Below, piece after piece: positions 2,943 to 43,688 of a stretch of DNA of 50,475 bases. A program made the translations under genes and the position numbers. Origin of the DNA: Chitinophagaceae bacterium (GTDB lineage: Bacteria > Bacteroidota > Bacteroidia > Chitinophagales > Chitinophagaceae); contig JANWIY010000112.1 of assembly GCA_025449645.1 (NCBI GenBank), positions 1 through 50,475 of the forward strand. Reading direction: 5' to 3'. The stretch's first letter is position 1. Each line of letters starts with the position of its first letter. Below the pieces are notes generated by a model. That model was given only the letters and a program-made list of their open reading frames with translations, had not been told where the DNA came from and made no database searches.

Positions 2943-2958
2943 GCATTCAATTCAACTT

Positions 2959-22802: not shown

Positions 22803-24233
22803 ATGAAAAGAAAGATCATTCTTGATATTTCTGCCAGTTCTGTCCAGGTCTTTATTAATCAGATCTGCGGCATCCTGATCTTTTATATCCTTTCCAAATA
22901 CATTTCAAAATCCATTTTCGGGGAAATCAGCTGGTGCCTGGCCGTATTGATGCTATCATTTGCCGTTCTTGGCTTTGGTATGGACCAGGTTATCGTCAGA
23001 AAAACCGCAGCCGGAAATGAAGCTTCACATCTGGCATCCCTTTATTCCCTGCATCTCCTGCTGACCGGCGTTTTCTTCTTAACGCTATTGTGGCTGATCA
23101 AGGTTTTCACAGGGGGGGCAGCCTCCACTACAACGACCCTGTTCTTATTGGCCACAGGCCAGTTTTTGATCTTTCTATCAATGCCTTTCAAGCAGATCGC
23201 GAACGGGAAAGAATTATTCAGGCCTTTATTAGCAATGTCAGTTATTGCAAATATCCTCAAAGTGGCCGGATTGCTCATTCTGGCTAAGATCAACCGCCTG
23301 AGTCTTCATTCTTTTATTGGCTTATATATTTGTGCGTCTGCCATTGAATTGATGACCTGCTTTTATATAGGAAGGCGTTTTCTCAACCTCCGTCCGCGGT
23401 TATCCTTTCACCTGAAACAATACAGGGCCCTGATCAGAGAATCCCTGCCCCAACTGGGCGTGATTGTGTGCAATGCCGGAATCGCCAGGTTTGACTGGGT
23501 TTTGCTTGGCCTCATCTCGACAACTTCCATATTAGCAGAATACAGCTTCGCTTATAAGGCGTTTGAGGTTTCTACATTGCCCCTGTTTATCATTGCACCA
23601 CTTTTGCTGCCCAGGATAACCAGATGGTTCCATCGGGATCCGGGCGATGCGATGAATAAAAGGAATCATTCCCTGATCACCCTTGTCAGATTCGAAGTGA
23701 TTCTTGCCTGCCTCGGTTCGCTTGTTTTGAATATTATCTGGTCACCATTTGTAGACAGCATCACAAATAATAAATATGGTAGTGTCAATCAGCACACGAT
23801 CCTCGTTTTATCTGCCTGCGTGCCATTTTTATACGTTAATAATGTGCTCTGGTCTATAAACTTTGCGCAGAATCAAATGAAATTGATTCTTTCCGTTTTT
23901 ACCGTTACTTTTCTAATCACCTGCGGGGGGGACCTGATCCTGATTCCTTTCTTTCATGCGGAAGGTGCCGCCTTTGCCTATTTTATTGCCATTGGTGCGC
24001 AGACAATCCACTTCCTCAGGAAAACCCATTTGGAAAATGCAGGCAGGATTCAATATTATTTATTCCTGGGGATTGGCAGCGCGCTGGTCAGCGGCTTCCT
24101 CGCAACATACGCCAGCAGTATCCTCTGGTTGCAGGTTTTGATATCTGTTTCCATATACCTGTTTATTTTAGTCCTTAGCCGTCAACTCCGTTTTAATGAT
24201 TTATTCAGGCTTAAAAGAATTGTGTGGGCCTGA
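22803..24233 (+). CDS. Wzx-type oligosaccharide flippase
   Basis: A 476-residue polytopic protein with about 12 to 14 membrane helices, opening with IILDISASSVQVFINQICGILIFYILSKYISKSIFGEISWCLAV. This is the typical start of a polysaccharide_synt/MVF-family flippase: helix, short loop, then FGxxSW. Such proteins move undecaprenyl-linked glycans across the inner membrane. It is the first gene of a long glycan locus, 18 nt after the small sigma-partner gene, and is followed by an O-antigen ligase-like gene, which matches a Wzx/Wzy-dependent pathway. Substrate identity cannot be told from sequence. Confidence 0.9.
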   Translation: MKRKIILDISASSVQVFINQICGILIFYILSKYISKSIFGEISWCLAVLMLSFAVLGFGMDQVIVRKTAAGNEASHLASLYSLHLLLTGVFFLTLLWLIKVFTGGAASTTTTLFLLATGQFLIFLSMPFKQIANGKELFRPLLAMSVIANILKVAGLLILAKINRLSLHSFIGLYICASAIELMTCFYIGRRFLNLRPRLSFHLKQYRALIRESLPQLGVIVCNAGIARFDWVLLGLISTTSILAEYSFAYKAFEVSTLPLFIIAPLLLPRITRWFHRDPGDAMNKRNHSLITLVRFEVILACLGSLVLNIIWSPFVDSITNNKYGSVNQHTILVLSACVPFLYVNNVLWSINFAQNQMKLILSVFTVTFLITCGGDLILIPFFHAEGAAFAYFIAIGAQTIHFLRKTHLENAGRIQYYLFLGIGSALVSGFLATYASSILWLQVLISVSIYLFILVLSRQLRFNDLFRLKRIVWA

Positions 24234-24265
24234 ATTCAGCATTTCGGAAAAAAATTTAACTAGGC

Positions 24266-25912
24266 ATGAAGTCGCTCCGCCAATATGAGAAAATCCGGTC
24301 TTCAATCACTCAAAATCTGTATCAGCAGGTTGACTGGAAATTATTCGTCTTTCTTTCCCTTCTACTCGACGTTAAATTATGGATGAAGATTCTTGCGCTC
24401 CTGTTCATATACTGCCTGCGCTTCAATTTCAAATTTGGATTGAGGTGGAGAAAATCCCGGCTGCCTCTTTTTTATATTATGGTCATGGGGATTGCCGTGC
24501 TGGACTGGCTATTGTATGGGCTTTATTCAAATTTATCCTACGGGCTTGTGCTGGTAAACGGCTTGTTCTTCTGGACATTTTGTTTACTGGCTATACACCA
24601 GTTAAAGTTATCCGTTGACCGTTCATCAGCAGTCGCACTGCGTAATACCCTGCTGCTGTTCTTTATATTCAATATGGTCATTTCCCTTTCCAATTTCCTG
24701 GCCATCGTCATAGAAACGGGTGCATGGAATCCATACCTGTACCAGGGGCTGTTTCAGAAATATTTTATCAGTACAGGCGACTACATTAAGGGGCTTTCCT
24801 TTGATACCTCCACTACAAACGCCCTGATCAATGCTTTTGGCGTGGTATTTTTTCTGAACAATAAAAAGATCGCGCTTACTCTATGCTGCATGGTCGCGCT
24901 GATCCTTACCGCCAGTAACCTGACAAATATCATCCTGGTCATCGCCCTGACTTTTTCATTCCTATTTCAAAGTGACCGTGATCAGAAAAGTACCATTGTC
25001 CTTTGCCTGGGATTGATCGCACTTTTTCTTGTCAGGGTGTCTCCGCAGAATAATGAGTATGTGATTTCGGCTGCGAAAAAAATGTTTACCCGGGAAGCGG
25101 CCCTCAATAATTTAAGGCCTGCAATAAATACAACGGATACCCCAACACTGGAAGTGAGACGGATTCGTTTTGCGATAAAATATCTGGATAGTGCAAGAGA
25201 AACCTGGGCATCAGATAAACTAAAAGGAGCCTCAATAAATAGCTGGATGAAACCTGTGATTCCCGGACCGGATATTAATGGGAAGGAATACCAGAGTTCC
25301 ATGGATACGACTCCATTCCAAAGAAAAATGATCAATTTCGCCAATACACATTACAAGGATACGGCTGATTATTTCAAAAAAATGCGCACCACCAGGCTTC
25401 CCGGCAAGGTCATAGCCATGCAGGAAACCATGCGATTCCTGCAAAACCATCCCTCCCGGATATTTACGGGTGACGGCGTTGGAAACTTCTCTTCTAAACT
25501 GGCATTCAGGGCAACGGCGTTGAATATCGGAGTTAAATATCCGGAAGAATACAGCTATATCGATCCGGATTTTCAGAATAATCATCTCCGGCTTTATTTG
25601 TTTTATTTCACCCAGCACAAAGATGTTCATTCCATCATTCATACACCCGATTCGGAATTTAATCAGCTGCTGGGAGAATATGGACTTGCGGGCCTGATCA
25701 GTCTGCTGGTTTTCTATCTCGGATGGTTTACCGTATACTTCAGAAAAACGTCTTGCAGTGCACCGCTTCTCGTGATTATGACATGTGCATTTTTTACAGG
25801 ATATTGGTTTGAGCAATTATCTGTAGTCGTATTTTTCGAATTACTGATGCTGCTGGATATGAAATTCAAAGGTGAAAGTATATTTGCCACTGCATTAAAA
25901 CAGGAAAAATAG
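24266..25912 (+). CDS. O-antigen ligase/polymerase-like membrane protein (Wzy/WaaL superfamily)
   Basis: A 548-residue protein with about ten membrane helices and one large soluble loop (residues about 265-470). The loop includes GDGVGNFSSKLAF and ends at HTPDSEFNQLLGEYGLAGLISLLVFYLG, the typical closing motif of the Wzy_C/O-antigen ligase family. Such proteins polymerise repeat units or ligate the glycan to its acceptor in the periplasm. The loop is longer than usual. The second family member, at 41595, suggests one polymerase and one ligase, but sequence alone cannot assign which is which. The stop is 1 nt before the next gene. Confidence 0.85.
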   Translation: MKSLRQYEKIRSSITQNLYQQVDWKLFVFLSLLLDVKLWMKILALLFIYCLRFNFKFGLRWRKSRLPLFYIMVMGIAVLDWLLYGLYSNLSYGLVLVNGLFFWTFCLLAIHQLKLSVDRSSAVALRNTLLLFFIFNMVISLSNFLAIVIETGAWNPYLYQGLFQKYFISTGDYIKGLSFDTSTTNALINAFGVVFFLNNKKIALTLCCMVALILTASNLTNIILVIALTFSFLFQSDRDQKSTIVLCLGLIALFLVRVSPQNNEYVISAAKKMFTREAALNNLRPAINTTDTPTLEVRRIRFAIKYLDSARETWASDKLKGASINSWMKPVIPGPDINGKEYQSSMDTTPFQRKMINFANTHYKDTADYFKKMRTTRLPGKVIAMQETMRFLQNHPSRIFTGDGVGNFSSKLAFRATALNIGVKYPEEYSYIDPDFQNNHLRLYLFYFTQHKDVHSIIHTPDSEFNQLLGEYGLAGLISLLVFYLGWFTVYFRKTSCSAPLLVIMTCAFFTGYWFEQLSVVVFFELLMLLDMKFKGESIFATALKQEK

Positions 25913-25913
25913 T

Positions 25914-26888
25914 ATGTGCCTGGTAACCGTTCTGATGCCCGTTTATAATGCTGAAAAGTATATCGGCGAAGCCATTCAGTCGGTATTGGACCAAACATAT
26001 ACATCTTTTGAACTCCTGATTGTGAATAATGGATCAACTGACAACACAGTAAATATCATTCATTCAAATCCCGACCTGCGCATCCGGCTGATCGGGGAAG
26101 AAAGAAGAGGGATTTCCTTTGCATTGAATACAGGATTGCACGCTGCAAAAGGCAATTATATTGCGCGGTTTGATGCTGATGATATTTGTCTTCCCCGGCG
26201 CCTTGAAAAACAGGTTGGTTTTTTAGACGCGAACCCCGACTACGTGCTTACGGGCACTGATGCGGAATACATTCAGGAAAACGGCGATCATCTTTTTGAT
26301 TTCAGGAGCATAAGCTATTCTTATGACCAGATCCTGCACCGTTTATACCGGTATTGTCCCTTTATCCATTCTAGTGTCATGTATCGCAAGGATGCCGTAT
26401 TGAATGCCGGTGGATATTCTCATCTTGCTCATCATTTTGAAGATTATTTTCTTTGGGTAAACCTGGTCAAATCTGGAAAATGCTGCAATCTTCCTGAGCC
26501 CCTTATAAAAGTAAGGTTCAATCCGGGTTCACTTACTATCGATGAAAAGTGGAAGGGGGAAGTTTTCCGAAAACTAAAGATGAAGATTATCCGGAAAGGA
26601 ACAATTACTGAAAAGGAAGCCAATACCCTGCGTAGAATAATTACAAAACAGGAGGGCAGAAAAATAAAGGAAGGCTCCTATCATGCTTTGTGCTGCAAAA
26701 AATTCCTTGCAGATAATTACCAGCCTTCAAAAGCGAGGTGGCACGCTACAAAGGCCATTTATTTCAATCCTTTCCGGGTGGAAAACTACGTTATGCTGAT
26801 TGCCAGTTATTTCCCGCATAAATGGATCCGGAGCATGAAGGGAAAACCGGCAAAGAACATAAAAATAATAAATGAACAAAGCAGGTAA
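25914..26888 (+). CDS. Family 2 glycosyltransferase
   Basis: A 324-residue GT-A fold glycosyltransferase. The N-terminal domain starts VTVLMPVYNAEKYIGEAIQSVLDQTY, with the nucleotide-binding NNGSTD (38-43) and the metal-binding motif in ARFDADD (DAD at 87-89). A catalytic region around HHFEDYFLWVNL (EDY/W motif) follows. It transfers a sugar from a nucleotide donor to a lipid-linked glycan at the cytoplasmic face. There is no membrane segment. Its end overlaps the start of the next glycosyltransferase gene by 17 nt, so the two are translated together. Confidence 0.93.
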   Translation: MCLVTVLMPVYNAEKYIGEAIQSVLDQTYTSFELLIVNNGSTDNTVNIIHSNPDLRIRLIGEERRGISFALNTGLHAAKGNYIARFDADDICLPRRLEKQVGFLDANPDYVLTGTDAEYIQENGDHLFDFRSISYSYDQILHRLYRYCPFIHSSVMYRKDAVLNAGGYSHLAHHFEDYFLWVNLVKSGKCCNLPEPLIKVRFNPGSLTIDEKWKGEVFRKLKMKIIRKGTITEKEANTLRRIITKQEGRKIKEGSYHALCCKKFLADNYQPSKARWHATKAIYFNPFRVENYVMLIASYFPHKWIRSMKGKPAKNIKIINEQSR

Positions 26889-27927
26889 AACCCTGGTTAT
26901 CCTAAGCCCCGGTTTTCCTGAAAATGAGGGGGATACTACCTGTCTGCCTGCCCAACAGATATTCGTCCGTGCACTCAACCGTCAGTTTGAATCCTTAAAC
27001 ATCATCATCCTCTCGTTTCAATATCCGTTTATTTCCAATTCATATACCTGGAACGAAAACCTGGTCATTCCCCTGAACGGAAGGGAAAGGGGAAAAATAA
27101 ACAGGCTTTGGACCTGGTTCCGGGCATGGCAAACCCTGAAGAAAATAAAAAAGGAATATGATATCATCGGCCTGCTCAGTTTCTGGTGCACAGAATGCTC
27201 GCTGGTGGGAACCCGTTTTGCCAAAAAATATTTAATCAAACATTATAGCTGGATCCTGGGCCAGGATGCGCGCAAGGATAACCGGTTCATCCCATGGATA
27301 AAGCCCGCAGCAGAAAACCTGATGGCCATGTCTGTTTTTCTTTCTAAGGAATTTTATAAAAATCACCGCATAAAACCCGGGTATATTGTCCCGAACGGGA
27401 TAGATATTTCATCCTATCCGCACCAGGTTGAAAAACGGGATATTGATATTATCGGGATAGGCTCGCTGATACCTTTAAAGCAATATGAAATTCTTATCCG
27501 TGTAGTTAAAAAATTGAGCAGTTCCATTCCTGAAGTTTCCTGTATTATTTGCGGGAAAGGCCCCGAGGAAGAACATCTGAGGAAAATGATACTGGATAAC
27601 AATCTTCAAAAAAATATTTCCTTACCAGGAGAAAAGCCGCACAGAGAAATTCTGGAATGGATGGCAAGGAGTAAAGTACTGCTCCATCCTTCCTCATACG
27701 AGGGATTCAGCACAGTTTGCCTTGAGGCTCTCTATTCCGGTGCCCATGTAACCAGCTTTTGTGATCCGATGGGAAGCCGGATTGCCCATTGGCATGTCGT
27801 GGACAATGAAGAAGAAATGGCAGTGGTTGTTAGTAAAATAATTCAGAACCCGGACGCAGATTATGGGCGAATCCTGGTTTATTCCATGGAGGATAGTGCC
27901 AGACAGGTAATGAAATTATTTGAATAG
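26872..27927 (+). CDS. Family 4 glycosyltransferase (GT-B)
   Basis: A 351-residue GT-B glycosyltransferase. The C-terminal donor domain has GSLIPLKQYEILIRVVKKL, ICGKGPEEEHLRKMI and the E-x7-E retaining motif in SSYEGFSTVCLEALYSG. The N-terminal acceptor domain opens with LVILSPGFPENEGDT. It presumably adds a sugar to the lipid-linked glycan. Its start overlaps the upstream GT2 gene by 17 nt. Its end overlaps the convergent GT9 gene by 12 nt, so the two strands meet here with no intergenic terminator. Confidence 0.92.
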   Translation: MNKAGKTLVILSPGFPENEGDTTCLPAQQIFVRALNRQFESLNIIILSFQYPFISNSYTWNENLVIPLNGRERGKINRLWTWFRAWQTLKKIKKEYDIIGLLSFWCTECSLVGTRFAKKYLIKHYSWILGQDARKDNRFIPWIKPAAENLMAMSVFLSKEFYKNHRIKPGYIVPNGIDISSYPHQVEKRDIDIIGIGSLIPLKQYEILIRVVKKLSSSIPEVSCIICGKGPEEEHLRKMILDNNLQKNISLPGEKPHREILEWMARSKVLLHPSSYEGFSTVCLEALYSGAHVTSFCDPMGSRIAHWHVVDNEEEMAVVVSKIIQNPDADYGRILVYSMEDSARQVMKLFE

Positions 27928-28962
27928 AGCGGACCCTGAAGGCTGCTTTAATTGCAACAGGGGAATCGATTTTTCAAAAATCATTTCTGCGCTGTACCTC
28001 GTCAGGCAATGCGTGTCCCCATATCTGCAACGGGGCTGCATACAGCCGCCGCATTCCAGATCGGCAGAATCAACAAACCCGGTTGCTTCACCGAGAGGTC
28101 TCGCTTTTTCACTCTGCGTAGAGCCGAACAACGCCATGGTTGGGATACCTGAAACCCAGGCCATATGCATGAGGCCAGAATCTTCCGACAAAACAAATTT
28201 CACTTCCTGTACTATGGCAAAGGCCTGGGCAGGCGTGGTTTTATTCACGAGATTGATCATTCGGTTTCCCAAATGTTTTTCCATGCAGGCCGACCTGGCA
28301 GCGATGAATTCCGTACCCATGACCAGGAACTGGGTATCAGGAAAATTTTTAAGCCATAATGCCGCAAACTGCACATAATTATCAATCGGCCAGTTTCGCG
28401 ATTCGAAAGCACCGGCCGGATTAAGTACCACGAGCTGATGGTCTTCCTTCCAACCGTTTTCTCTTAGCAATTGAATGGCCTCCTGCCTGTTGACCATTGA
28501 AAAAACAGTGTGTGGAAAACACTTTCCCAATCCGATAGCTTCAATCGTCGCCCGTGTGCGTTCTCCTGCGGCAACGGGCGATAACCGATCAAATAAAGAC
28601 CATGCTTTCGGCATCAGGCATTTACTGACCAGCCGGCTGACGATATTATCCTGAAGATCTATTACTACATCATACTTTTTTAAAAAGAGTTGCGGGATCA
28701 GCCAGCAGGTATGCAGCAATTGTTTTTTTACGCTTCGTCCTCCGCGAATGGAATAAACCCGGTTGAACAAGTGCATATGCTTTGGGATTGCATCCACTTC
28801 TTCCCGCGTAAGGAGATCCAAAACGGTATCAGGCGGAAGGGTATTTCTCAGTTGCTGTAAATAAGGAAGAGTTATGACAAGGTCGCCCATGGCTTGCAAC
28901 CGGATAGCGAGCACCCTTTTCGGAGCAAAGGCCTTCTTCCATTTTATGGCTAAAATGTCCAT
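27916..28962 (-). CDS. Family 9 glycosyltransferase (heptosyltransferase-like)
   Basis: A 348-residue GT-B protein of the ADP-heptose:LPS heptosyltransferase family (GT9). Visible marks are VLAIRLQAMGDLVITLPYL (the family G-D near the N terminus), LNPAGAFESRNWP, SEDSGLMHMAWVSGIPTMALFGST, and a Cys-rich end (ECGGCMQPRCRYGDTHCLT). It may transfer a heptose or another sugar to a lipid core. It is transcribed opposite the preceding genes, and its end overlaps the GT4 gene by 12 nt. The amidohydrolase and methyltransferase genes lie upstream on the same strand. Confidence 0.9.
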   Translation of the reverse strand: MDILAIKWKKAFAPKRVLAIRLQAMGDLVITLPYLQQLRNTLPPDTVLDLLTREEVDAIPKHMHLFNRVYSIRGGRSVKKQLLHTCWLIPQLFLKKYDVVIDLQDNIVSRLVSKCLMPKAWSLFDRLSPVAAGERTRATIEAIGLGKCFPHTVFSMVNRQEAIQLLRENGWKEDHQLVVLNPAGAFESRNWPIDNYVQFAALWLKNFPDTQFLVMGTEFIAARSACMEKHLGNRMINLVNKTTPAQAFAIVQEVKFVLSEDSGLMHMAWVSGIPTMALFGSTQSEKARPLGEATGFVDSADLECGGCMQPRCRYGDTHCLTRYSAEMIFEKSIPLLQLKQPSGSALFK

Positions 28963-28994
28963 GGGAATAAGCAGGTTTTATTTTCCAATAAGGA

Positions 28995-30161
28995 TCATGA
29001 GGCAGAAATAGGGAAATTGACGGCCGGAAAATAACTCCGGATTTGCTGCATCAATCCGGGCAAATCTCCCTCAACAAATTTTGTTTCTCCATGAATGGAA
29101 ATCTTACTGAATTTTTTCAGCGGAAAATTAAATAATCGCAATTGATCAGACAGCTTCGCATCGAACATCCTGATATTTCCTTTATGAAGAACCATTAATA
29201 AATCCTCCGGATTCAGGGCGTAAAAATTATCCATGCCATTCTTATCGGTTTTGCATCGCGCTACAACAATATCTGCCTGCAGGCCGGCTGAAATACTGCC
29301 GCGATTATCAAAGCACCACGCGGCCGCCGGTATGCCCGTGAGCATATCCAGCAATCCTTCATCGGAAACCATCTTTTGCTTCCTGGCAAGCCGCAGGTGT
29401 TCCCAGAGGTTCCAGCTTGCAGTTAAGGTTGAATCTGTTCCAAGCGTCACAGCAGTTTTTTTACTCAGGCTATTGACAGGGGCCGTTTTGTTCAGCAAAA
29501 AATAATTGGATGCGGGGCACCATATCAGCGCCCGGAATTCGGGAGCCTGTTTATCATTCATGGCAACACAGTGCACTGCAATTATCTTTCTTCTAAAAAG
29601 ATTCCACCTGATAATGCTGTCAATTTCCCGGCAGGAGGCATGGTCTGTTCCTTCGCCCAGATGAATGACGAATGGCCGGTTTTTGGAAAAGGGAGAATTA
29701 ATCTTCCATCTCCAGTTTTTTTCGAATGCGGGTGAATGGAGGGACCTGGATCGCTGGAAAACCGATATCAATTCGCATTCCACCGGCAAGGGCTTTCCAT
29801 GATTAATTACTGTTGTTACCCCGTTCAGAAGATTTTTATAGACCCCCCACTGTACACGAAGTGCCAATGGCACCTGCATCACTCGTGAAATCTCCTCTTT
29901 GTTGACACTGTGGATGTCTTTTCCCCACTCGGTATAGCTATTGTAAATTTTATTTCCTAATTGGGGAAATAAATTAAAATCCAGGTGATCATGAGAATTG
30001 ATGAATCCGGGAAAGGCAACCGAATCTGCAAAAGATAAAGACAATTCCGACCGATGATTTTTTAAGGCGCCAGCAGAAAAAACCTCCTTTATTTTCCCGT
30101 CCTCTATCCGGATATCCGAAAATCCCTGGGTGCCGATAATGTGAACATTATGTACCAGCAT
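28995..30161 (-). CDS. Metal-dependent amidohydrolase, unknown substrate
   Basis: A 388-residue TIM-barrel amidohydrolase. Metal ligands are visible: HxH in FINSHDHLDF (H57 and H59), FVIHLGEG, AVHCVAM and the terminal Asp in LGTDSTLTA, in the order typical of the guanine/cytosine/chlorohydrolase-like branch. There is no signal peptide. Within a glycan locus it could hydrolyse an amide or amidine on a sugar or lipid, but the substrate is unknown. Its start overlaps the end of the upstream methyltransferase gene by 14 nt (30148-30161), suggesting a coupled pair. A 32-nt gap precedes the GT9 gene. Confidence 0.82.
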   Translation of the reverse strand: MLVHNVHIIGTQGFSDIRIEDGKIKEVFSAGALKNHRSELSLSFADSVAFPGFINSHDHLDFNLFPQLGNKIYNSYTEWGKDIHSVNKEEISRVMQVPLALRVQWGVYKNLLNGVTTVINHGKPLPVECELISVFQRSRSLHSPAFEKNWRWKINSPFSKNRPFVIHLGEGTDHASCREIDSIIRWNLFRRKIIAVHCVAMNDKQAPEFRALIWCPASNYFLLNKTAPVNSLSKKTAVTLGTDSTLTASWNLWEHLRLARKQKMVSDEGLLDMLTGIPAAAWCFDNRGSISAGLQADIVVARCKTDKNGMDNFYALNPEDLLMVLHKGNIRMFDAKLSDQLRLFNFPLKKFSKISIHGETKFVEGDLPGLMQQIRSYFPAVNFPISAS

Positions 30162-30894: not shown

Positions 30895-30963
30895 CCTTTG
30901 ATATAATTAAAACGTTTATTATAGAAAGCAGAAACATAAAAGTAATCATTGTTTCAATTAAAT

Positions 30964-32463: not shown

Positions 32464-32471
32464 AAACCGTT

Positions 32472-33236: not shown

Positions 33237-33245
33237 GGGCCTGCC

Positions 33246-34298: not shown

Positions 34299-34312
34299 CT
34301 GATCAACCAACC

Positions 34313-35818
34313 ATGTTCAATTCAACATTTATCCATATCAAATCTTCATCCTTCAGCAGGGCCTTACCATCAAGGCACAGTCTTCTCAAATCCCGCGTAT
34401 TACCCATTCTATTATTCATTGTTGCGTTACAATTGATTGCTGGATTTTTTACCTACGAGCATACCCTCGGTTTTGATGAAGCCATGTGGCAATATATTGG
34501 AAGGACTTGGTTTCGTAATGGCCTTGTTCCTTATTCGGGAGGAGTCGACAATAAATCTCCGCTGATCTTTGCTGTGTTTGGTTTCTCCGATAAATTATTT
34601 GGCGTAAACTATTGGTTCCCACGTTTGCTGGGTATTGGATTTCAATCGCTCGGTTTGTACTACGTATATAAGATCGTCCGCTATATTTCCACGCAGCAGG
34701 GCGCCTTAATGGCGCTTACGATTTACGGATTTTCACTTGTCTGGCACGGCACAGGTGGAAAATATGTTTCATTTACGGAATCGTATTGCGTCGCCTTCAT
34801 CATTATGGCTGTGTACTATTCTATTTCAGGTCACCGAAATAAGTCCTTTTTTATCAGTGGTGCCTTAGCAGGATTAGCTTTCATGTTTAATATTTTCGCA
34901 TTTTTTGGCATTTTTTCGATTTTCATTTATCTGGTATTGTCAAAAAAAAGTATGACGCTTAGTTTTTTAAGCGGACTATTGGCAAGTTTAGTTATGATTG
35001 CAGGATTGCTTTCCCTGGCCGGAATTCATATCCAGGATATTTTTCTTTACGCCCTGTATGACAATTTCGGAGCGGGCAGCGTAACCGATCATCCACTATC
35101 CTGGGAGCTGAATAATTTTTTTAATCATTTCTTCTACTCGGAAATGGTCCTTCTCCTGCCCGGTTTTATAGGTTATTTCTTCATTAATAAAAGAAATGAT
35201 ATTTTTCTTATCTGGCTTGCCTGCGAATTCATCGGCCTGGGTGTGATTGGAACATTTACTCCGCAACATTTCAAGCACCTGCTGCCGGCATTATCCATAA
35301 TGAACGCATTGTGCCTCTCTTTTTTGATCGAGAATTACGGGATACCATGGAAGCCCATTGTCATCATTCTGTGGATTTGCTTTATTCCGAAACTATTGGA
35401 ACCGATATTCAGCCTGAAAAACCAAATGGGTGCGAAAAAGGCGGTTGCTGATTACAATGCGCCCGATAATCAGGAGAGCGATTATGCAAAAAAAATGCTG
35501 GGCCTCTGGATCAAATCAAATACTGCAGCGAATGACCGGGTGCTGGTTGCGGGATATGGAGCCATAGCACAGGCTTATTCGGAACGGCAATCCCCTACCA
35601 TTTATTTTAATGTTACTCAAACGCAGTTGGCGAAGAAAATATTTTTCAATGACCTTCAACTTCACCAACCCGAAATGATATGCGTTCCCACTTTCGCGGG
35701 CTACCAGTTAAATGTGGATGCTGATATCCGGGATTTTATTAGCAGGCTGACGGCCCGTCAGTATGAAATGAAGAACCGTGTGCCGGGCTATGAGATTTAT
35801 CTGAAAAACAAGGATTAA
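34313..35818 (+). CDS. GT39-like membrane glycosyltransferase (GT-C)
   Basis: A 501-residue polytopic protein with about 10 to 12 membrane helices. After the first helix comes TYEHTLGFDEAMW with the acidic pair D55 and E56, matching the DE motif of GT-C enzymes such as PMT/ArnT/GT39. These use a polyprenyl-phosphate sugar donor on the outer face of the membrane. A soluble C-terminal tail (about 395-501) follows the last helix. An in-frame start at 34250 lies within the previous gene; the ATG at 34313 is chosen because it avoids that overlap. Probably adds a sugar outside the cytoplasm. Confidence 0.85.
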   Translation: MFNSTFIHIKSSSFSRALPSRHSLLKSRVLPILLFIVALQLIAGFFTYEHTLGFDEAMWQYIGRTWFRNGLVPYSGGVDNKSPLIFAVFGFSDKLFGVNYWFPRLLGIGFQSLGLYYVYKIVRYISTQQGALMALTIYGFSLVWHGTGGKYVSFTESYCVAFIIMAVYYSISGHRNKSFFISGALAGLAFMFNIFAFFGIFSIFIYLVLSKKSMTLSFLSGLLASLVMIAGLLSLAGIHIQDIFLYALYDNFGAGSVTDHPLSWELNNFFNHFFYSEMVLLLPGFIGYFFINKRNDIFLIWLACEFIGLGVIGTFTPQHFKHLLPALSIMNALCLSFLIENYGIPWKPIVIILWICFIPKLLEPIFSLKNQMGAKKAVADYNAPDNQESDYAKKMLGLWIKSNTAANDRVLVAGYGAIAQAYSERQSPTIYFNVTQTQLAKKIFFNDLQLHQPEMICVPTFAGYQLNVDADIRDFISRLTARQYEMKNRVPGYEIYLKNKD

Positions 35819-35850
35819 ATTGAAGCTTCTGAAATATTCAAAAGTGCGCC

Positions 35851-37311
35851 ATGGATAAGATTCTTTTCACGCATTCGTATTTTCTAAGATTCGACCCGAA
35901 ACAATGGGCCACAGGCCAGCCCTATCCTCCCCTGGCGACCTTGTATGCAGCTGCTGCGCTAAGGGAATCCGGAAATAATGTATCCCTTTTTGATACGATG
36001 TTTTGCCATAGTCCGGAAGAAATTGTTCCGGCACTGAACGAATGGAACCCCCGTTTTCTGGTGATCTATGATGACGGGTTCAATTATCTCACAAAGATGT
36101 GCCTGACCAATATGCGGGAAGCTGCATTCCGGATGTGCAGACTGGCAAAGGACCGCGGATGCATGGTGATTGTTTCAAGTTCGGACTCAACTGATCAACA
36201 CAAAAAATATCTCCATGAGGGAGCCGATTTTATTTTGCTCGGTGAAGCGGAAGAAACACTTAAAGAATTGGTCGACGCCATTCAAAACGGCAAGAAGGAA
36301 TTCAGGGAGATTAAAGGACTGGCTTTTAAGCAGGAGGATGATTTCATAAAAACAGAAAGGCGTGCTGTAATCCGTAATCTGGACGCGCTTCCGATGCCGG
36401 CCTGGGACCTGATAAATCTTAGCATGTACAGGCAAACCTGGATGGACCATGCGGGATATTTCTCTTTGAATATGGCCACCACCCGGGGATGCCCATACAA
36501 ATGCAACTGGTGTGCAAAGCCGATTTACGGGAACAGATACAATGCCAGGTCGCCCTGGCATGTTGTTCAGGAATTGAAATGGTTAAAGGCTAACCTTGGG
36601 TTCGATCACATCTGGTTCTGTGATGATATTTTTGGTTTAAAACCGGGCTGGGTAAATGAATTCGCCGGACTTGTTGAAAAGGAGAATTTGAAATTCAAAT
36701 TCAAGATACAGGCCAGGGCCGATCTGCTTTTGCAGGATAACAATGTGGCCGCACTTGCCCGCGCGGGTTGTGATAATATCTGGATGGGTGCCGAAAGCGG
36801 GTCCCAGAAAATACTGGATGCCATGGATAAAGGCATCACGGTTCAACAAATAAAAGAAGCAACCCAGATGATCCGCAAGCACGGAATGAATCCTTCCTTT
36901 TTTATTCAGTTCGGTTATTTGGGCGAAACTAAAGAAGATATTGAAATGACCATCAGCATGATCAACCAGCTGTTACCTTATGAAATCGGAATATCGGTAT
37001 CGTATCCTTTACCAGGCACGGTCTTTTATGAAAAGGTAAAGGAGGAACTGGTACAAAAAACAAACTGGACAGACTCTGATGAAATGGCGTTGATGTTCAG
37101 GAATACTTATCAACCTGCTTTTTATAAGCAATTGCACCGGTATGTGCACAAAACATACCGCAAGCATATTGCATTTGACAATTTCCGCCGCCTGCTCTTC
37201 CATCCGGCAAGGGGAAAGTTCATGCAGGTAAAGAAAGCATTGTCAGGTTTATATTATATCCCTGCAGCTTTCATTGAAAAGAAAAAATTAAACCAGCTGG
37301 AAAAACCCTGA
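35851..37311 (+). CDS. B12-binding-domain radical SAM enzyme (second)
   Basis: A 486-residue protein with an N-terminal B12-binding-like domain (about 1-150; YPPLATLYAAAALRESGNNVSLFD, IVSSSDSTDQ, DFILLGEAEETLKELV) and a radical SAM domain with the cluster motif GCPYKCNWC (C214, C218 and C221) followed by IWMGAESGSQKILDAMDKG. It is related to, but clearly diverged from, the protein at 30964, so the two probably act on different positions or substrates. The C-terminal part continues to residue 486 with a basic tail. It is followed after 13 nt by another class I methyltransferase, repeating the order seen at 30964-33236. Confidence 0.9.
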   Translation: MDKILFTHSYFLRFDPKQWATGQPYPPLATLYAAAALRESGNNVSLFDTMFCHSPEEIVPALNEWNPRFLVIYDDGFNYLTKMCLTNMREAAFRMCRLAKDRGCMVIVSSSDSTDQHKKYLHEGADFILLGEAEETLKELVDAIQNGKKEFREIKGLAFKQEDDFIKTERRAVIRNLDALPMPAWDLINLSMYRQTWMDHAGYFSLNMATTRGCPYKCNWCAKPIYGNRYNARSPWHVVQELKWLKANLGFDHIWFCDDIFGLKPGWVNEFAGLVEKENLKFKFKIQARADLLLQDNNVAALARAGCDNIWMGAESGSQKILDAMDKGITVQQIKEATQMIRKHGMNPSFFIQFGYLGETKEDIEMTISMINQLLPYEIGISVSYPLPGTVFYEKVKEELVQKTNWTDSDEMALMFRNTYQPAFYKQLHRYVHKTYRKHIAFDNFRRLLFHPARGKFMQVKKALSGLYYIPAAFIEKKKLNQLEKP

Positions 37312-37324
37312 TCAATTCAATCCC

Positions 37325-38170
37325 ATGCAAATGGAAACGAACGAGCAGCGTGCTGCAGCAGCCTTCACCAGGCAATCGGGCATTTTCGATGAACGTTTCG
37401 GGAGGAATACGATCGTTCAATATAAGCGTGAGAGAGTACGGAACCTTGTGCAAAAATATATTCCCTCTAAAGCGGCAATCCTGGAACTTAACAGTGGGAC
37501 CGGAGAAGACGCCATCTGGTTCGCGGAGCAGGGACACCGGGTGCATGCAACGGACCTTTCATCCGGAATGCAAACTGTGCTAAAGAATAAAGTGGAAATA
37601 AAAGGTTTGCAAGAGATGATCAGCACCGAGTGCTGCTCATTTACCCAATTGGAATCTTTAGCCCAAAAGGGACCATACGATCTGATTTTTTCAAATTTCG
37701 CCGGATTAAATTGTACCGGGGATTTAAGCAGGGTGCTGGAAAGTTTCCAAGGTTTATTAAAACCGGAGGGCCTTGTTATAATGGTCATCCTGCCCAAACA
37801 ATGCCTCTGGGAATTCCTTTTATTGTTCAGGGGAAAGTTTCGCACCGCCTTCAGGCGTTTTTTCGGCAGCAGGGGCAAAACTGCCCGTGTTGAAGGGGAA
37901 CAATTTACCTGCTGGTATTACAATCCTTCCTTCATTGCAGGAAAATTGAAAAAATCATTTCGCTTATTGTGTCTCGAGGGCTTATGCAGCCTGGTGCCTC
38001 CTTCATACATGGAGGAGTTTCCGGAAAAATATCCGTCCATTTACGGTTTTCTCAAGAAAGAAGAAAATCGTTTGAAAAATAAATGGCCCTGGAACCGGAT
38101 CGGAGATTATTATATTATTGCATTAAGAAGAAAGACTGAATCAGAGCAAAGCCGCATCCCAATGAACTGA
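37325..38170 (+). CDS. Class I SAM-dependent methyltransferase
   Basis: A 281-residue methyltransferase. Motif I reads AILELNSGTGEDAIWFA (about 55-71), with Asn-Ser in place of the first Gly-Cys/Gly-Ser of the usual DxGxGxG, then ATDLSSGM, DLIFSNFAGLNCTGDLSRV and LLKPEGLVIMVI. The C-terminal third contains a helix-rich segment, GKFRTAFRRFFGSRG, that may form a substrate lid. It starts 13 nt after the second B12-radical SAM gene. Its last 30 nt overlap the convergent nucleotidyltransferase-like gene. An ATG two codons later (37331) could also be used. Confidence 0.88.
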   Translation: MQMETNEQRAAAAFTRQSGIFDERFGRNTIVQYKRERVRNLVQKYIPSKAAILELNSGTGEDAIWFAEQGHRVHATDLSSGMQTVLKNKVEIKGLQEMISTECCSFTQLESLAQKGPYDLIFSNFAGLNCTGDLSRVLESFQGLLKPEGLVIMVILPKQCLWEFLLLFRGKFRTAFRRFFGSRGKTARVEGEQFTCWYYNPSFIAGKLKKSFRLLCLEGLCSLVPPSYMEEFPEKYPSIYGFLKKEENRLKNKWPWNRIGDYYIIALRRKTESEQSRIPMN

Positions 38171-39079
38171 TAGCTTCTTTAGCCGCTCATTATACAAGGC
38201 CAGGATTTCCTGCTGGAAAAAGACGGGGTTTGGCCTGGAGAAATGTTTGCTGGTATATAAGCTCATTCTTGTGCCTTTGACAGAGAGCTTTTGTTTTTCT
38301 TCTTTTCTTTTCCAGCGACGCGTGGTTACGCGCATGAAATAGTTATCAAGCCTGTCGCCCATCCTCCCGTCAAAAAAGGATTCCAGAAGTTTCTTGAATC
38401 CCGAATCTCCGGCGGATCTTTCGGGGCTTTTCATGCCAATCCTGTAATTTGGATAGAAGCGGCCTGCCCAATCATTTTTCAGAAAAAAATCATGAATGAC
38501 CCCGTTGCCCTGAACCGGTAGAAGGGTAATCAGTTCAATAGCCGTAAAAATATTTTTCTCTTCGATTTCGAGTGCTTCTTCATCTATGTAATAATTCATG
38601 CAGTACCAGTGCTGCCGGCCGAATAGAAAACTGAATTTCTTGAATAAATGCATTATGGTTCTGGCTATCCAGAGGCGATTGGCCTTGGTAATAATAAAAT
38701 AATCAATATCGGCATCCTCAGCCGCAAAATTCTTTGACAGGGATCCCGAAATGCCGATTACTCTTACATAAGGGATCTGATAAAGAAAATGGGAAATACG
38801 ATGGGCAATTCGCAATAATGCCTGTGCTTTGAGGTTGCCGGTAATCCTGCGGGCCGCAAGCGCGTCCCCAGGCCGGATAGTATAAAAACCATTACTTAGA
38901 AAAATGATTTTTCTGTCCAGGAGTTCGTGTAAAACAGCGGAAAGCTCCCCTATTTTCACCGGCCGTTCGAGATAGGACCATATTTCTTCCTTTGAAACCG
39001 GATAGTCAAAGAGATCGAAATAGGCCAACACCTTTAATATGCTATGGCTTAAATCCACCGGCTGGTAAGTTATATTCAA
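38141..39079 (-). CDS. Winged-helix plus nucleotidyltransferase-like protein
   Basis: A 312-residue protein. Residues 1-70 look like a winged helix (HSILKVLAYFDLFDYPVSKEEIW, then two helices and a beta wing). Residues 107-130 carry the nucleotidyltransferase signature GISGSLSKNFAAEDADIDYFII, with GS at 112-113 and DxD at 124 and 126. The fold resembles minimal nucleotidyltransferases that AMPylate proteins or modify small molecules, but no function is known. The start is a TTG at 39079; the codon just upstream in frame is a stop, and no ATG occurs nearby. It is convergent with the upstream methyltransferase gene (30-nt overlap) and divergent from the GT4 gene. Confidence 0.75.
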   Translation of the reverse strand: MNITYQPVDLSHSILKVLAYFDLFDYPVSKEEIWSYLERPVKIGELSAVLHELLDRKIIFLSNGFYTIRPGDALAARRITGNLKAQALLRIAHRISHFLYQIPYVRVIGISGSLSKNFAAEDADIDYFIITKANRLWIARTIMHLFKKFSFLFGRQHWYCMNYYIDEEALEIEEKNIFTAIELITLLPVQGNGVIHDFFLKNDWAGRFYPNYRIGMKSPERSAGDSGFKKLLESFFDGRMGDRLDNYFMRVTTRRWKRKEEKQKLSVKGTRMSLYTSKHFSRPNPVFFQQEILALYNERLKKLSVHWDAALL

Positions 39080-39411: not shown

Positions 39412-40551
39412 ATGAAAGTAGCTTTCATCACCAGGGCAACGTTACATACAGTTAAGGGAGGGGATACGATTCAGGTATTACAAACGGCAAAACAGCTCGC
39501 TCAGCTTGGCTTTTCGGTGGACGTAAAACTAACCCACGAAAGGATCAACTACGCCAGCTACGATTTACTTCATTTTTTTAATATCACAAGACCCGCAGAT
39601 ATTCTTTTTCATATCCAGAAAGCAGGAAAGCCCTTTGTCATTTCCACCATATTGATTGACTACAGCGATTATGACAACCATTACAGAAAGGGTCTTCCCG
39701 GTATGTTCATGCGATTTTTATCTGCAGACCACCTCGAATATGTAAAAGCAATCGCCCGGTTCCTGAAGGGTCAGGATAAATTGATGACAAGGTCCTATTT
39801 ATGGATGGGCCAGCATAAATGCATCCAGGAAATCCTCCGCCGGGCTTCGGTGCTTTTTTCGAATTCCTCTCTGGAAACTATAAGACTCATACAGCGGTAC
39901 GACTGCAATACCCATTGCATCCCCGTGGCCAACGGCATAGACCCCGAGATATTCTCCTATGACAAGGAAGTTGAAAAGGATGAGTGCCTCGTATTGTGTG
40001 TGGCGCGCATTGAAGGCATTAAAAATCAAATAAATCTGATCAGGGCACTAAACAATACCAGGTATACTTTACTGATCATTGGCTCGGCGGCCCCCAATCA
40101 GCGATCTTATTACAGGGAATGCCGGCAGATTGCAGCACCCAATATCCGATTCATGGAATATATTGACCAGGCCGAACTGGCACTATACTACCAGAGGGCA
40201 AAAGTGCATGTATTGCCGAGCTGGTTCGAAGCCTGCGGATTATCTTCCCTGGAGGCTGCAGCTATGGGATGCAATCTCGTGATCACGGCCAAAGGTTATA
40301 CGCGTGAATATTATGAGAACCATGCTTTCTATTGTGAACCCGGATCCCCGGAATCCATTTTACATGCAGTGGATGAAGCTGCGAAAGCAGGTTTCCCTGA
40401 AGCGCTCAGAGAAAAGGTTTTATTGCATTACACCTGGCCGAAAGCCGCTATTCGAATAGCAAAAGCCTATCATCATTTACATAAAACACATGAGTATCCG
40501 TATCGGAATAATAGGATCAAGGGGTATTCCCAATCATTACGGGGGCTTTGA
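39412..40551 (+). CDS. Family 4 glycosyltransferase
   Basis: A 379-residue GT-B enzyme. The donor domain contains LVLCVARIEGIKNQINLIRAL, LLIIGSAAPN and the E-x7-E motif in SWFEACGLSSLEAAAMG. The N-terminal domain begins MKVAFITRATLHTVKGGDT. It is cytoplasmic and likely elongates a glycan on a lipid carrier. It starts a plus-strand three-gene set. Its 3' end overlaps the next gene by 62 nt in a different frame, which is long for a bacterial overlap and indicates tight coupling. Confidence 0.92.
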   Translation: MKVAFITRATLHTVKGGDTIQVLQTAKQLAQLGFSVDVKLTHERINYASYDLLHFFNITRPADILFHIQKAGKPFVISTILIDYSDYDNHYRKGLPGMFMRFLSADHLEYVKAIARFLKGQDKLMTRSYLWMGQHKCIQEILRRASVLFSNSSLETIRLIQRYDCNTHCIPVANGIDPEIFSYDKEVEKDECLVLCVARIEGIKNQINLIRALNNTRYTLLIIGSAAPNQRSYYRECRQIAAPNIRFMEYIDQAELALYYQRAKVHVLPSWFEACGLSSLEAAAMGCNLVITAKGYTREYYENHAFYCEPGSPESILHAVDEAAKAGFPEALREKVLLHYTWPKAAIRIAKAYHHLHKTHEYPYRNNRIKGYSQSLRGL

Positions 40552-41635
40552 GCGTTTGGCTGAGCAACTTTCCCGCGGCCTCGTAAACAGAGGGCACGAG
40601 GTATACGTTTATAATTCGCATAACCACGCATACCGCGAACACAATTGGGAAGGAGTTCATGTCATTCATTGCTATGATCCGGAATATCTGATCGGATGCA
40701 GCGGACAGTTTATTTATGACCTGAATTGTATTCTCGATGCGCGGGTCAGGAAATTCGATATCCTCCTGATCCTCGGCTATACCAGCAGTTCCGTCTGGGG
40801 CCGTCTGCTTCCAAGAAGCAGTGTAATCATATATAATATGGATGGACTGGAATGGCAAAGGGAAAAATACACTTCAAAGACCCGGAAATTCCTGCTCTAC
40901 GCGGAAAAGCTGGCGGTTCAATTCAGCGACTTTCACATTTCAGACTCTCCGATCATCCAGGCTTATTACCTGGAAAAATACAATCTGACCACCGAATATA
41001 TTGCGTACGGAGCTTCCTTATCCAACAATGAAAAGAAAGAGATTCTCGATTCCTTCGGGGTCACGCCCTACAATTATTTTATCCTGATCGCCCGCCTGGA
41101 ACCGGAAAACAATATAGAAGCCATTCTGGATGGTTTCTCGATGAGTGATACGGAAAAGCAGTTCCTGATTGTGGGGAATGTCAAAAACAAATTCGGGAAA
41201 TACCTTGTCAAAAAGTTCGGCGGGGACCGTCGAATCCGGTTTACCGGGGCGTTGTATGATGATCAGATAACACATAGCCTGCGCACCTACTCCCAGCTTT
41301 ATTTTCATGGCCATAGCAGCGGTGGAACCAATCCATCCCTCCTGGAGGCGATGGCCAGCCGGTGCCTCATTGCTGCACACGGAAATATGTTCAACAGGAC
41401 CGTTTTGCAGGATGATGCCTTTTATTTTTCAAGCGCCGAAGAAGTAAAATACATGATTACCCAATCGGCTCCGGCCCCTATTAGGGAGCAAATGGTAACA
41501 AGGAACCTGGAAAAAATAAGAACCAGGTACAATTGGGGCGAAATCATAGGTCAATATGAAAGATTTATGATGCAATGCCTGTACATTCATACCCATGAAA
41601 GAAATATTCTCAGTAAGGCTTACTCTTGCGAATAA
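40490..41635 (+). CDS. DUF1972-type glycosyltransferase
   Basis: A 381-residue GT-B protein. The N-terminal signature IRIGIIGSRGIPNHYGGFERLAEQLS matches the DUF1972 domain of rhamnosyltransferase-like proteins. The C-terminal domain has YFILIARLEPENNIEAIL and the SGGTNPSLLEAMA segment with the conserved Glu of retaining GT4-like enzymes. It may transfer a deoxysugar, but the donor cannot be read from sequence. Its start overlaps the upstream GT4 gene by 62 nt, and its end overlaps the ligase-like gene by 41 nt, giving a compact three-gene unit. Confidence 0.9.
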   Translation: MSIRIGIIGSRGIPNHYGGFERLAEQLSRGLVNRGHEVYVYNSHNHAYREHNWEGVHVIHCYDPEYLIGCSGQFIYDLNCILDARVRKFDILLILGYTSSSVWGRLLPRSSVIIYNMDGLEWQREKYTSKTRKFLLYAEKLAVQFSDFHISDSPIIQAYYLEKYNLTTEYIAYGASLSNNEKKEILDSFGVTPYNYFILIARLEPENNIEAILDGFSMSDTEKQFLIVGNVKNKFGKYLVKKFGGDRRIRFTGALYDDQITHSLRTYSQLYFHGHSSGGTNPSLLEAMASRCLIAAHGNMFNRTVLQDDAFYFSSAEEVKYMITQSAPAPIREQMVTRNLEKIRTRYNWGEIIGQYERFMMQCLYIHTHERNILSKAYSCE

Positions 41636-42872
41636 GATAAGTTATTATCATTTACTGGTCTTTCTGATCGCTTTGCCATTCGACCGGTTTTACAGTGAGC
41701 TGGTACTGATCAGTTTCCTTATCCATGCAGCTATCCAGCTTGCCGGACCCGCCAGGATCCGTATACATGCCGCATTATTTATCCCTACCCTGCTTTATGT
41801 ACTAACGGTCATGGGCACCGTTTATTCAAGCGACAAATCACAGGCGTTTAAGGACTGCGAAAAGCAGCTTGGCCTCTTATTGTTTCCCCTGATATTTTGT
41901 GTCATTCCCCTGGATTTCGAAAAATATAAGATTCGATTGCTGAAAGCGTTTGGTCTGACCTGTGCTCTGCTGATCCTGTATCTTTTCTATGATGCCTTGC
42001 AGGTGATACAATTTAACAAACTGCCATTTTCTACCATCCTCACACATGCGTTTACAAACCATAATTTCTCATCACCGGTAGAATTGCATGCCACTTATTT
42101 TTCAATGTATATTTCTCTATCGCTGGCGGTTTTCTTGTATTTGTTGATTTTTTCAAAAAAACGAAATGAACGCATCTTTTACATCATCGTTTGCCTGATC
42201 CTGTTTTCAGGCCTTCTCCAGCTTGCTTCGAGGTCAGTTTTCCTGGCTACGCTTTTGATATTTAATTTATCTATTCCCTTCTTTTTACTGAAGGGAAAAA
42301 AACGCAAAAAATTCACTTTTTTTTCGGTTTGTTTCTCACTGATCGTCATTGGCCTGCTTACGGCAAGCGGTTCACTGAGATCCAGGTACCTGACAACATT
42401 AAAGCAGGATTTAACCATTGCGGGTGTTCCACAGAATTTATCAGAATCCCGTATGAGGCGCTGGCATTACATGGGAGAACTGATCCTTCAGCGACCTGTG
42501 CTGGGCTACGGGAGCGGGACCGAAGTGAATCTGCTGAAAGATAATTATTTCGAGCATGGATTATACAATTCATTTCTCCATGAATTGAATGCAGACAACG
42601 AATATATCAGCCTGCTCTTAAAAAACGGAATCTTAGGTTTATTCGTTTATGTCACTGTTCTATTTCTCGGATTCAGATACGCGGTCAGGTCCAAAGATTT
42701 CTTTTTTTTCAGCTTCCTGCTGATCATCTCGGTGGTTTCAATTTCCGAGAACATACTGGATGTAAACAAGGGAATCTTTTTCTTCAGTTTCTTTTTCTCT
42801 TTTTTTATGAAAGCAATCACTTCCCACGGGGAGTCAACTGATCCCGGAGCCCAGATCAGGCCCGCAAGCTGA
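41595..42872 (+). CDS. O-antigen ligase/polymerase-like membrane protein (second)
   Basis: A 425-residue protein with about 11 membrane helices. The periplasmic loop near residues 260-335 includes RPVLGYGSGTEVN and LNADNEYISLLLKNGILGLFVYVTVLFLG, the characteristic O-antigen ligase/Wzy_C region. It has fewer soluble residues than the homologue at 24266. As the last gene of the GT4-DUF1972-ligase set, it may finish a second glycan or attach the product to its final acceptor. It overlaps the upstream gene by 41 nt. Ten nt later the convergent SDR gene ends. Confidence 0.88.
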   Translation: MKEIFSVRLTLANKISYYHLLVFLIALPFDRFYSELVLISFLIHAAIQLAGPARIRIHAALFIPTLLYVLTVMGTVYSSDKSQAFKDCEKQLGLLLFPLIFCVIPLDFEKYKIRLLKAFGLTCALLILYLFYDALQVIQFNKLPFSTILTHAFTNHNFSSPVELHATYFSMYISLSLAVFLYLLIFSKKRNERIFYIIVCLILFSGLLQLASRSVFLATLLIFNLSIPFFLLKGKKRKKFTFFSVCFSLIVIGLLTASGSLRSRYLTTLKQDLTIAGVPQNLSESRMRRWHYMGELILQRPVLGYGSGTEVNLLKDNYFEHGLYNSFLHELNADNEYISLLLKNGILGLFVYVTVLFLGFRYAVRSKDFFFFSFLLIISVVSISENILDVNKGIFFFSFFFSFFMKAITSHGESTDPGAQIRPAS

Positions 42873-43671: not shown

Positions 43672-43688
43672 AAAATGATTTAAGAGCG

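Follow-up and report, generated by a model that had tools for sequence, protein, structure and literature searches.

We analyzed a 50,475-base stretch of DNA from a Chitinophagaceae bacterium (contig C112, hereafter "the window"; genome of 3.59 Mb in 190 contigs, 86% complete), in which a predicted surface-glycan locus at 22803–42872 encloses three radical S-adenosylmethionine (SAM) enzymes, three methyltransferases, an amidohydrolase, and a putative nucleotidyltransferase (NTase). Every gene that a first-pass annotation of the window had named is an open frame at its given position, and the G+C content lies at 0.42–0.47 throughout the locus. Profile scans covered 30 window proteins, with positions 1–9897 and 49124–50458 outside the scan, and Pfam calls were judged against curated cut-offs. 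Nearly all of the named genes exceeded these cut-offs, leaving short of them the NTase, the second of the two proposed ligases (lig1, 24266–25912), and the B12-binding domains attributed to two of the radical SAM enzymes.

The center of the locus is a forward-strand run of six genes separated by gaps of 8–32 bases. It encodes a class-B radical SAM enzyme of the BchE/HpnJ-like type (rSAM1, 30961–32463, from a probable ATG at 30961 or possibly a TTG at 30949; PF04055 Radical_SAM, 42.0 bits, cut-off 29.5), a SAM methyltransferase (MT2, 32472–33236; PF13649, 53.1 bits), a SPASM radical SAM enzyme (33246–34298; PF04055 and PF13186, 61.2 and 51.6 bits, cut-offs 29.5 and 21.5), a PMT_2/GT39-like membrane glycosyltransferase (PMT2, 34313–35818; PF13231, 43.5 bits, cut-off 26.1; counted here from the ATG at 34313, the frame being open already from a GTG at 34250), a second BchE/HpnJ-like class-B enzyme (rSAM2, 35851–37311; PF04055, 79.6 bits, cut-off 29.5), and a further SAM methyltransferase (MT3, 37325–38170; PF13649, 46.3 bits, and an orthologue alignment). 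Convergent with MT3, and overlapping its 3′ end by 30 bp, lies the reverse-strand gene of the NTase (38141–39079), assigned to the Pol-beta type from an orthologue alignment, a structural model, and a weak fold match. Divergent from the rSAM1 run, three consecutive reverse-strand genes encode a SAM methyltransferase (MT1, 30148–30894; PF08241, 70 bits), an amidohydrolase of the 5′-methylthioadenosine/S-adenosylhomocysteine (MTA/SAH)-deaminase type (28995–30161, overlapping MT1 by 14 bp; PF01979 Amidohydro_1, 39.2 bits, cut-off 25), and a heptosyltransferase-like GT9 protein (27916–28962; PF01075, 72.2 bits, cut-off 22).

Both flanks of this radical block carry forward-strand genes for glycan assembly. 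To the left are a MOP-type, Wzx-like flippase (22803–24233; PF01943 Polysacc_synt, 56.3 bits, cut-off 28.2), the membrane protein lig1, possibly a polymerase or ligase (24266–25912), a GT2 glycosyltransferase (25914–26888; PF00535, 117.5 bits, cut-off 23.3), and a GT4 glycosyltransferase (GT4a, 26872–27927; PF00534, 77.8 bits, cut-off 26.4). To the right follow a second GT4 enzyme (GT4b, 39412–40551; PF00534, 67.2 bits, cut-off 26.4), a DUF1972 glycosyltransferase similar to the rhamnosyltransferase Cps2T (40490–41635; PF09314, 75.2 bits, cut-off 25; NF046071, 214.7 bits, short of the required 500), and an O-antigen ligase/polymerase-type protein (lig2, 41595–42872; PF04932 Wzy_C, 56.6 bits, cut-off 31.7). 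For lig1 itself, nothing in Pfam matches at E values up to 1, and five orthologues match Wzy_C weakly (E 0.025–0.3); a lig1 gene also follows wzx in four other loci (L029, L049, L052, and L059).

We examined the conservation of this arrangement in 117 genomes of the family (the window's own genome included), in 395 genomes of the phylum, and in the best 80 of at least 547 confirmed stretches from a scan of named genomes ("80 named loci"), with synteny compared in 25 family loci and the 80 named loci. Within the family, rSAM1 was detected in 23 genomes (61–81% identical to the window copy in the 22 relatives), the amidohydrolase in 16, rSAM2 in 34, and the NTase in 36. Fisher tests, uncorrected for kinship, gave p 3e-14 for rSAM2 in 22 of the 23 rSAM1 genomes, p 2e-27 for the NTase in 34/34 rSAM2 genomes versus 2/83 without rSAM2, and p 1e-10 for rSAM2 in 16/16 amidohydrolase genomes. 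The single rSAM1 exception, genome G112, has a completeness of 69%, and the contig there stops ~0.8 kb past rSAM1. For 33 of 34 genomes, the NTase and rSAM2 were located on the same contig, at a distance of at most 11.5 kb. Across the phylum sample, rSAM2 was found in 24 genomes, rSAM1 in 16, and both in 14; two rSAM1 carriers (G130 and G422) had no rSAM2 at 1e-130.

Gene order is conserved along with gene content. The nearest loci retain rSAM1-(MT2)-SPASM-(PMT2)-rSAM2-MT3-NTase with MT1-amidohydrolase divergent, and the order rSAM1-(MT2)-SPASM-rSAM2-MT3-NTase recurs among glycosyltransferase genes in Chitinophagaceae, Mucilaginibacter, and Dyadobacter. Since the same set and order recur in relatives, the grouping of these genes is more than chance. 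In distant loci NTase-rSAM2-MT3 remain together and rSAM1 and the other genes change place; the core of the block is NTase-rSAM2-MT3, and rSAM1 is an add-on partnered either by MT1 and the amidohydrolase or by a HemK-like methyltransferase, never by both (81 loci, see below). Carriers among the best 80 of the at least 547 named stretches include Mucilaginibacter, Puia, Pinibacter, Niastella, Longitalea, and Dyadobacter, as well as uncultured Aquimarina, Saprospiraceae, and Ignavibacteriota. Ten genomes were selected from those whose rSAM1 locus has no near rSAM2 orthologue; eight of them proved to carry rSAM2 elsewhere, and in four genomes (L134, L137, L138, and L139) the two genes lie, by coordinates, ~10–16 kb apart on one contig. 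The tie of rSAM1 to the locus is not strict, given the rSAM2-less carriers (G130 and G422, joined by two named genomes, L114 and L110) and a few loci without glycosyltransferases.

Several further features of these loci were recorded. A PMT2 homologue is present in 8/80 named loci, seven of which (L070, L072, L073, L074, L080, L090, and L107) hold a PMT_2 gene between the SPASM enzyme and rSAM2 as in the window. A protein of ~310 residues without a Pfam match (u4; e.g., L107:910–1854 and L026:6645–7595) occurs in 20/80 named and 9/25 family loci. Directly after MT3, some loci (L140, L043, L113, L121, and others) carry a second rSAM2-like paralogue ~33–37% identical to the window's rSAM2; the window's own genome contains a single rSAM2 match at 1e-70. 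One assembly titled Beijerinckiaceae (L104) has a locus of the Bacteroidota type, including an rSAM1 of 69% identity, and is probably misassigned. Carriage of rSAM1 on plasmids was considered and set aside, with no match among 72,556 plasmid records at 1e-60.

The radical block also keeps company with glycosyltransferases. Among the 74 rSAM1 loci flanked by 7 kb or more on each side (5 duplicates dropped), a glycosyltransferase was found within ~10 kb in 70, i.e., in 59 by direct similarity and in 11 of the other 15 by profiles, the weakest cases being one with a GT2 at the locus end only (L105) and one with a weak GT4 match (L123, E 1e-5). At ≥30% identity, these 74 loci contain GT4a in 53 cases, a second GT4 in 51, an ATP-binding cassette (ABC) transporter (u1) that presumably resembles the PglK flippase in 46, DUF1972 and lig2 in 32 each, and a PF02397-type priming transferase in 28. 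Near the GT9 site, many relatives carry another GT4 (u2/GT4c) in place of GT9 (u2 in 38/80 and GT9 in 4/80 named loci), and a polysaccharide deacetylase is also present in 18/80. For 15 module genes, glycosyltransferases included, sequence distances correlate with those of rSAM1 (Mantel r 0.56–0.80, uncorrected for kinship; 0/999 permutations as high). An apparent transfer points in the same direction: in Dyadobacter frigoris (L079), which belongs to another family and another order, all 17 genes of the GT4a–lig1 interval find their best match in Mucilaginibacter (in a Mucilaginibacter-rich database), rSAM1 branches within a supported clade made up of Mucilaginibacter and other Bacteroidetes, and the nearest relative of the priming transferase just outside the block is not Mucilaginibacter. 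Because the block genes agree on this nearest relative and the outside gene differs, the comparison suggests that the radical block moved to Dyadobacter together with its glycosyltransferases. Co-occurrence and synteny in the family and phylum samples likewise speak against radical SAM genes as independent passengers, and the joining of radical SAM and glycosyltransferase genes into one glycan locus, as first proposed, is upheld by co-occurrence, synteny, correlated divergence, and this apparent block transfer.

Taken together, we favor, with a probability of roughly 60%, a single surface-glycan locus of two co-inherited blocks, the second of which makes or remodels an unusual building block of the glycan. 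The first block (wzx, lig1, GT2, GT4b, the DUF1972 glycosyltransferase, and lig2) would assemble, flip, and polymerize or ligate an undecaprenyl-linked glycan, and the second (MT1-amidohydrolase-GT9, rSAM1-MT2-SPASM-PMT2-rSAM2-MT3, and the convergent NTase) would provide one unusual sugar building block. In such a pathway, the carrier would be loaded by a priming phosphoglycosyltransferase encoded elsewhere (the nearest candidate lies on contig C141), GT4a and GT9 would add sugars, rSAM2, MT3, and the NTase would introduce an obligatory change, and rSAM1 with MT1 and the amidohydrolase, as well as the SPASM enzyme with MT2, would add lineage-specific changes. We infer that the carrier is undecaprenyl phosphate and that the radical substrate is a carrier-linked sugar; by analogy, the chemistry would be an HpnJ- or AprD4-like ring remodelling, a deoxygenation, or a C-methylation.

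Several observations weigh against this reading. For the PF02310 B12-binding domain, the scores of the two class-B enzymes, 29.8 and 28.1 bits, stay below the cut-off of 32.1. Four of the 74 rSAM1 loci (L108, L114, L130, and L137) have no glycosyltransferase that we could find, and the L114 and L110 genomes have no rSAM2 at 1e-60. The co-occurrence and Mantel values, obtained with no housekeeping-gene control, partly reflect shared descent. Finally, no PF02563 Wza-type protein was found in the 86%-complete genome, nor was the relatives' ABC transporter at 1e-30, so that the export route either differs from that of the relatives or falls in the missing part of the genome.

The four loci lacking glycosyltransferases also bear on another reading, in which the radical block would serve to produce a lipid or another small molecule (a hopanoid-like or polyene-like compound or a cofactor) and sits beside the glycan locus for reasons of regulation or transfer. 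The best curated relatives of rSAM1 and rSAM2, which include HpnJ, BchE, and ladderane-type B12-radical SAM enzymes, fit this idea, as does a fatty acid desaturase gene at 44809–45837, outside the locus. We nevertheless regard it as quite unlikely, given the glycosyltransferases in 70/74 loci, the recurrence of GT4a, the ABC transporter, and the priming transferase near the block, the absence of polyketide, terpene, or fatty-acid genes from the Pfam matches of the block genes in the window, and HpnJ and BchE scores that all remain far below their cut-offs.

The type of radical chemistry was approached from the enzymes themselves. All three proteins combine PF04055 with an intact CxxxCxxC motif, whose cysteines are invariant in 23 aligned sequences each for rSAM1 (C201, C205, and C208) and rSAM2 and in 16 for the SPASM enzyme; the SPASM-domain cysteines C277, C295, C333, C336, and C338 are likewise invariant in 16 sequences. 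The best curated family name is HpnJ for rSAM1 and BchE for rSAM2, and neither protein reaches either model (HpnJ: 104.2 and 135.5 bits, cut-off 577.6; BchE: 102.5 and 160.1 bits, cut-off 481.35, for rSAM1 and rSAM2, respectively). Assignment to any of the named NCBIfam families of radical SAM enzymes was accordingly rejected, no model attaining its cut-off for rSAM1, for rSAM2 (best 25 of 31 matches), or for the SPASM enzyme (best 25 of 71). The rSAM1 model (predicted local distance difference test, pLDDT, 85; stretch 200–216, holding the cluster motif, poorly modelled) matches the folds of TsrM, MgmA, AprD4, and OxsB (TMq 0.55–0.64, best E 1e-16), i.e., enzymes with cobalamin together with AprD4, which works without it.

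If rSAM1 and rSAM2 were instead methylcobalamin-type C-methyltransferases, the product would be a glycan with branched C-methyl sugars. The leading fold matches of rSAM1, TsrM and MgmA, are both methylases, and by sequence the solved structure nearest to rSAM2 is that of MgmA (9ccb). The same comparison, however, places AprD4, a diol dehydratase with an aminoglycoside substrate, first for rSAM1 and second for rSAM2; HpnJ and BchE, the best curated names, are not methylases; and the B12 domains score below cut-off. We thus consider C-methylation of this kind rather unlikely for both enzymes. Of the C-methyl or epimer decoration originally put forward, C-methylation may be retained as one candidate among several; relatives from the same superfamily carry out other reactions, namely diol dehydration (AprD4) and cyclitol formation (HpnJ).

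The amidohydrolase raises a separate question of function. Its residues H57, H59, H167, E170, H197, and D243 are invariant in 16 sequences and align to 4f0r and 1p1m; we take them to be the HxH, H, and D metal ligands and the HxxE element of MTA/SAH deaminases. Its best solved matches are the MTA/SAH deaminase 4f0r and then TM0936 (1p1m), an enzyme of the same activity, at low similarity (45–49 bits overall), and its best NCBIfam match is an aminofutalosine-deaminase model (49 bits, cut-off 320). As far as sequence can tell, the protein thus carries the active-site signature of the MTA/SAH-deaminase type. It might then be a house-cleaning enzyme that deaminates 5′-deoxyadenosine or S-adenosylhomocysteine released by its neighbors and has no role on the glycan, which would be compatible with the two-block glycan locus. 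Consistent with this are the alignment of HxxE and the metal ligands with 4f0r and 1p1m and the presence of rSAM2 in all 16 family genomes that carry the amidohydrolase. The similarity to deaminases is low (~45 bits), though, and the enzyme is absent from 36/81 rSAM1 loci, 32 of which have the HemK-like methyltransferase instead; we hold house-cleaning to be a real possibility, somewhat short of an even chance. A further, highly improbable reading is that a radical SAM enzyme couples the 5′-deoxyadenosyl radical to a lipid-linked sugar or carrier, whose adenine the amidohydrolase then converts to hypoxanthine. MqnE and aminofutalosine deaminase, paired in menaquinone synthesis, are a precedent for adenosyl coupling followed by deamination, and were such coupling to occur here, nucleoside-bearing or carbon-rebuilt sugars would be present on the cell surface.

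The alternation between the two partners of rSAM1 was counted in 81 of 97 non-redundant loci, 16 being dropped for too short a flank; 5 duplicate loci and those in which no rSAM1 match exceeded 55% identity were also removed. A HemK/MTQ2-like methyltransferase follows rSAM1 in 32 of the 36 loci without MT1 and the amidohydrolase versus none of the 45 with the amidohydrolase (44 of these with MT1); it lies one gene further along in L126 and beside the NTase in the L137 genome. On the rSAM1 tree (82 sequences, quick search, no bootstrap), the alternation corresponds to two switches, and an independent-pairs test gave p 0.5. Since there are only two switches on the tree, we present the split as a pattern and not as statistical proof, and dropped the mutual exclusion as a strong statistical argument. 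The methyltransferase after rSAM1 in L130 (9403–10113) matches TIGR00537 (HemK2/MTQ2-like) at 91 bits, cut-off 87. In L134, a carbamoyltransferase (12795–14549; PF02543 and PF16861) adjoins rSAM1 and this methyltransferase, and a similar-looking frame was noted by eye in L129.

For the NTase, the proposal of a nucleotidyltransferase-like protein holds at the level of its motifs: G-S-x-S-K and D-x-D are invariant in 21 orthologues (with G112, S113, D124, and D126), as is D166, which, judged from its strand position in the model, would be the third catalytic carboxylate. The fold gives a weak match only. In the model (pLDDT 88), which has an N-terminal helical domain and an extra helical C-terminal part, the match is to ANT/MntA enzymes (best E 0.04, TMq ~0.25), and 0/662 matches reach E 0.001. 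Pfam and NCBIfam yielded no match at E 0.01, and a sequence comparison with the PDB gave nothing significant (best E 0.7).

Some steps of the pathway appear to be encoded elsewhere in the genome. As noted in the first-pass annotation, no priming transferase, Wzz, or Wza is visible among the 30 scanned window proteins, and the suggested reliance on genes elsewhere agrees with five PF02397 priming-transferase matches and one Wzz match (contig C182) in the rest of the genome. The companion suggestion of a different carrier is disfavored, since 15/25 family loci keep a PF02397-type priming transferase inside the locus and this genome has its five elsewhere. The nearest of these five, encoded on contig C141, aligns over 184 residues at 61% identity with the counterpart in the cluster of a same-genus relative, and its identity to the seven cluster copies compared ranges from 49% to 61%; on account of that resemblance, we favor missing steps encoded elsewhere over a different carrier. 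Flipping is probably achieved by Wzx here, given that the relatives' ABC transporter was not detected at 1e-30; an ABC protein on contig C141 shows 29% identity. Because PF02563 was not found in the 86%-complete genome, we do not file the locus as a Wza-dependent capsule.

Two features were noted to either side of the locus. Just beyond its right end, the reverse-strand interval 42883–44711 encodes an L-fucose dehydrogenase, scoring 412 bits against NF052481 (cut-off 300), together with a Zn-alcohol dehydrogenase, a pair that looks like sugar catabolism rather than glycan synthesis. On its left, a small lysine-rich, histone-H1-like frame was read by eye at 21540–21810, upstream of an extracytoplasmic function (ECF) sigma factor.

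Overall, independent travel of the radical SAM genes is not borne out by their neighborhoods, in which the block recurs in order among glycosyltransferases. Since the same radical block recurs among sugar genes in many relatives, the carbon skeleton of a surface sugar is probably chemically altered in these bacteria. Antibiotics and hopanoids supply most of the known examples of radical SAM enzymes acting on sugars, and our literature search, in which coverage of subscription papers was thin, found no description of this module. Named strains that carry the block belong to Mucilaginibacter, Pinibacter, Dyadobacter, and Niastella; the culturable Pinibacter soli (L076) and Mucilaginibacter pineti (L088) have it in full. 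If the block acts on a glycan, surface sugars with modified carbons would be commoner among Bacteroidota than one would gather from the literature found.

Among known systems, the locus has the makings of a Wzx/Wzy exopolysaccharide or O-antigen locus as judged from its gene families, i.e., a MOP flippase, a Wzy_C protein, and several glycosyltransferases (GT2, GT4, and DUF1972), with priming transferases elsewhere in the genome. It departs from such loci in having no priming transferase, Wza, or Wzz in the cluster and in including the radical SAM/methyltransferase/NTase block. The NTase shares catalytic carboxylates and the NTase core with the Pol-beta enzymes ANT(4′) and MntA and has extra helical N- and C-terminal parts, and the amidohydrolase shares active-site residues with MTA/SAH and aminofutalosine deaminases, from which it differs by its weak similarity and glycan-locus context. 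The cobalamin radical SAM enzymes TsrM, MgmA, and OxsB have the overall fold predicted for rSAM1, but the substrates of the first two are, by their record names, tryptophan and protein glutamine, and that of OxsB is not a glycan either. AprD4, the radical SAM diol dehydratase of apramycin synthesis and closest solved relative of rSAM1, acts on a sugar-containing substrate, paromamine, yet belongs to an antibiotic pathway and shows 15–17% identity in the structural match. In the HpnI-HpnK-HpnJ pathway, glycosyl transfer, deacetylation, and a radical SAM step turn bacteriohopanetetrol, via its N-acetylglucosamine and glucosamine forms, into a cyclitol ether, the glucosamine-bearing hopanoid being the substrate of HpnJ (PMC12583986). 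HpnJ itself is matched far below cut-off here, the locus has a second class-B enzyme as well as a SPASM enzyme and an NTase, and none of the 30 scanned window proteins has a Pfam match bearing a hopanoid gene name, the genome itself not having been searched for hopanoid genes. The shared logic of a glycosyltransferase, a hydrolase, and a class-B radical SAM enzyme that would act on a lipid-linked sugar nonetheless makes HpnI-HpnK-HpnJ, by analogy, the closest precedent for the locus described here.

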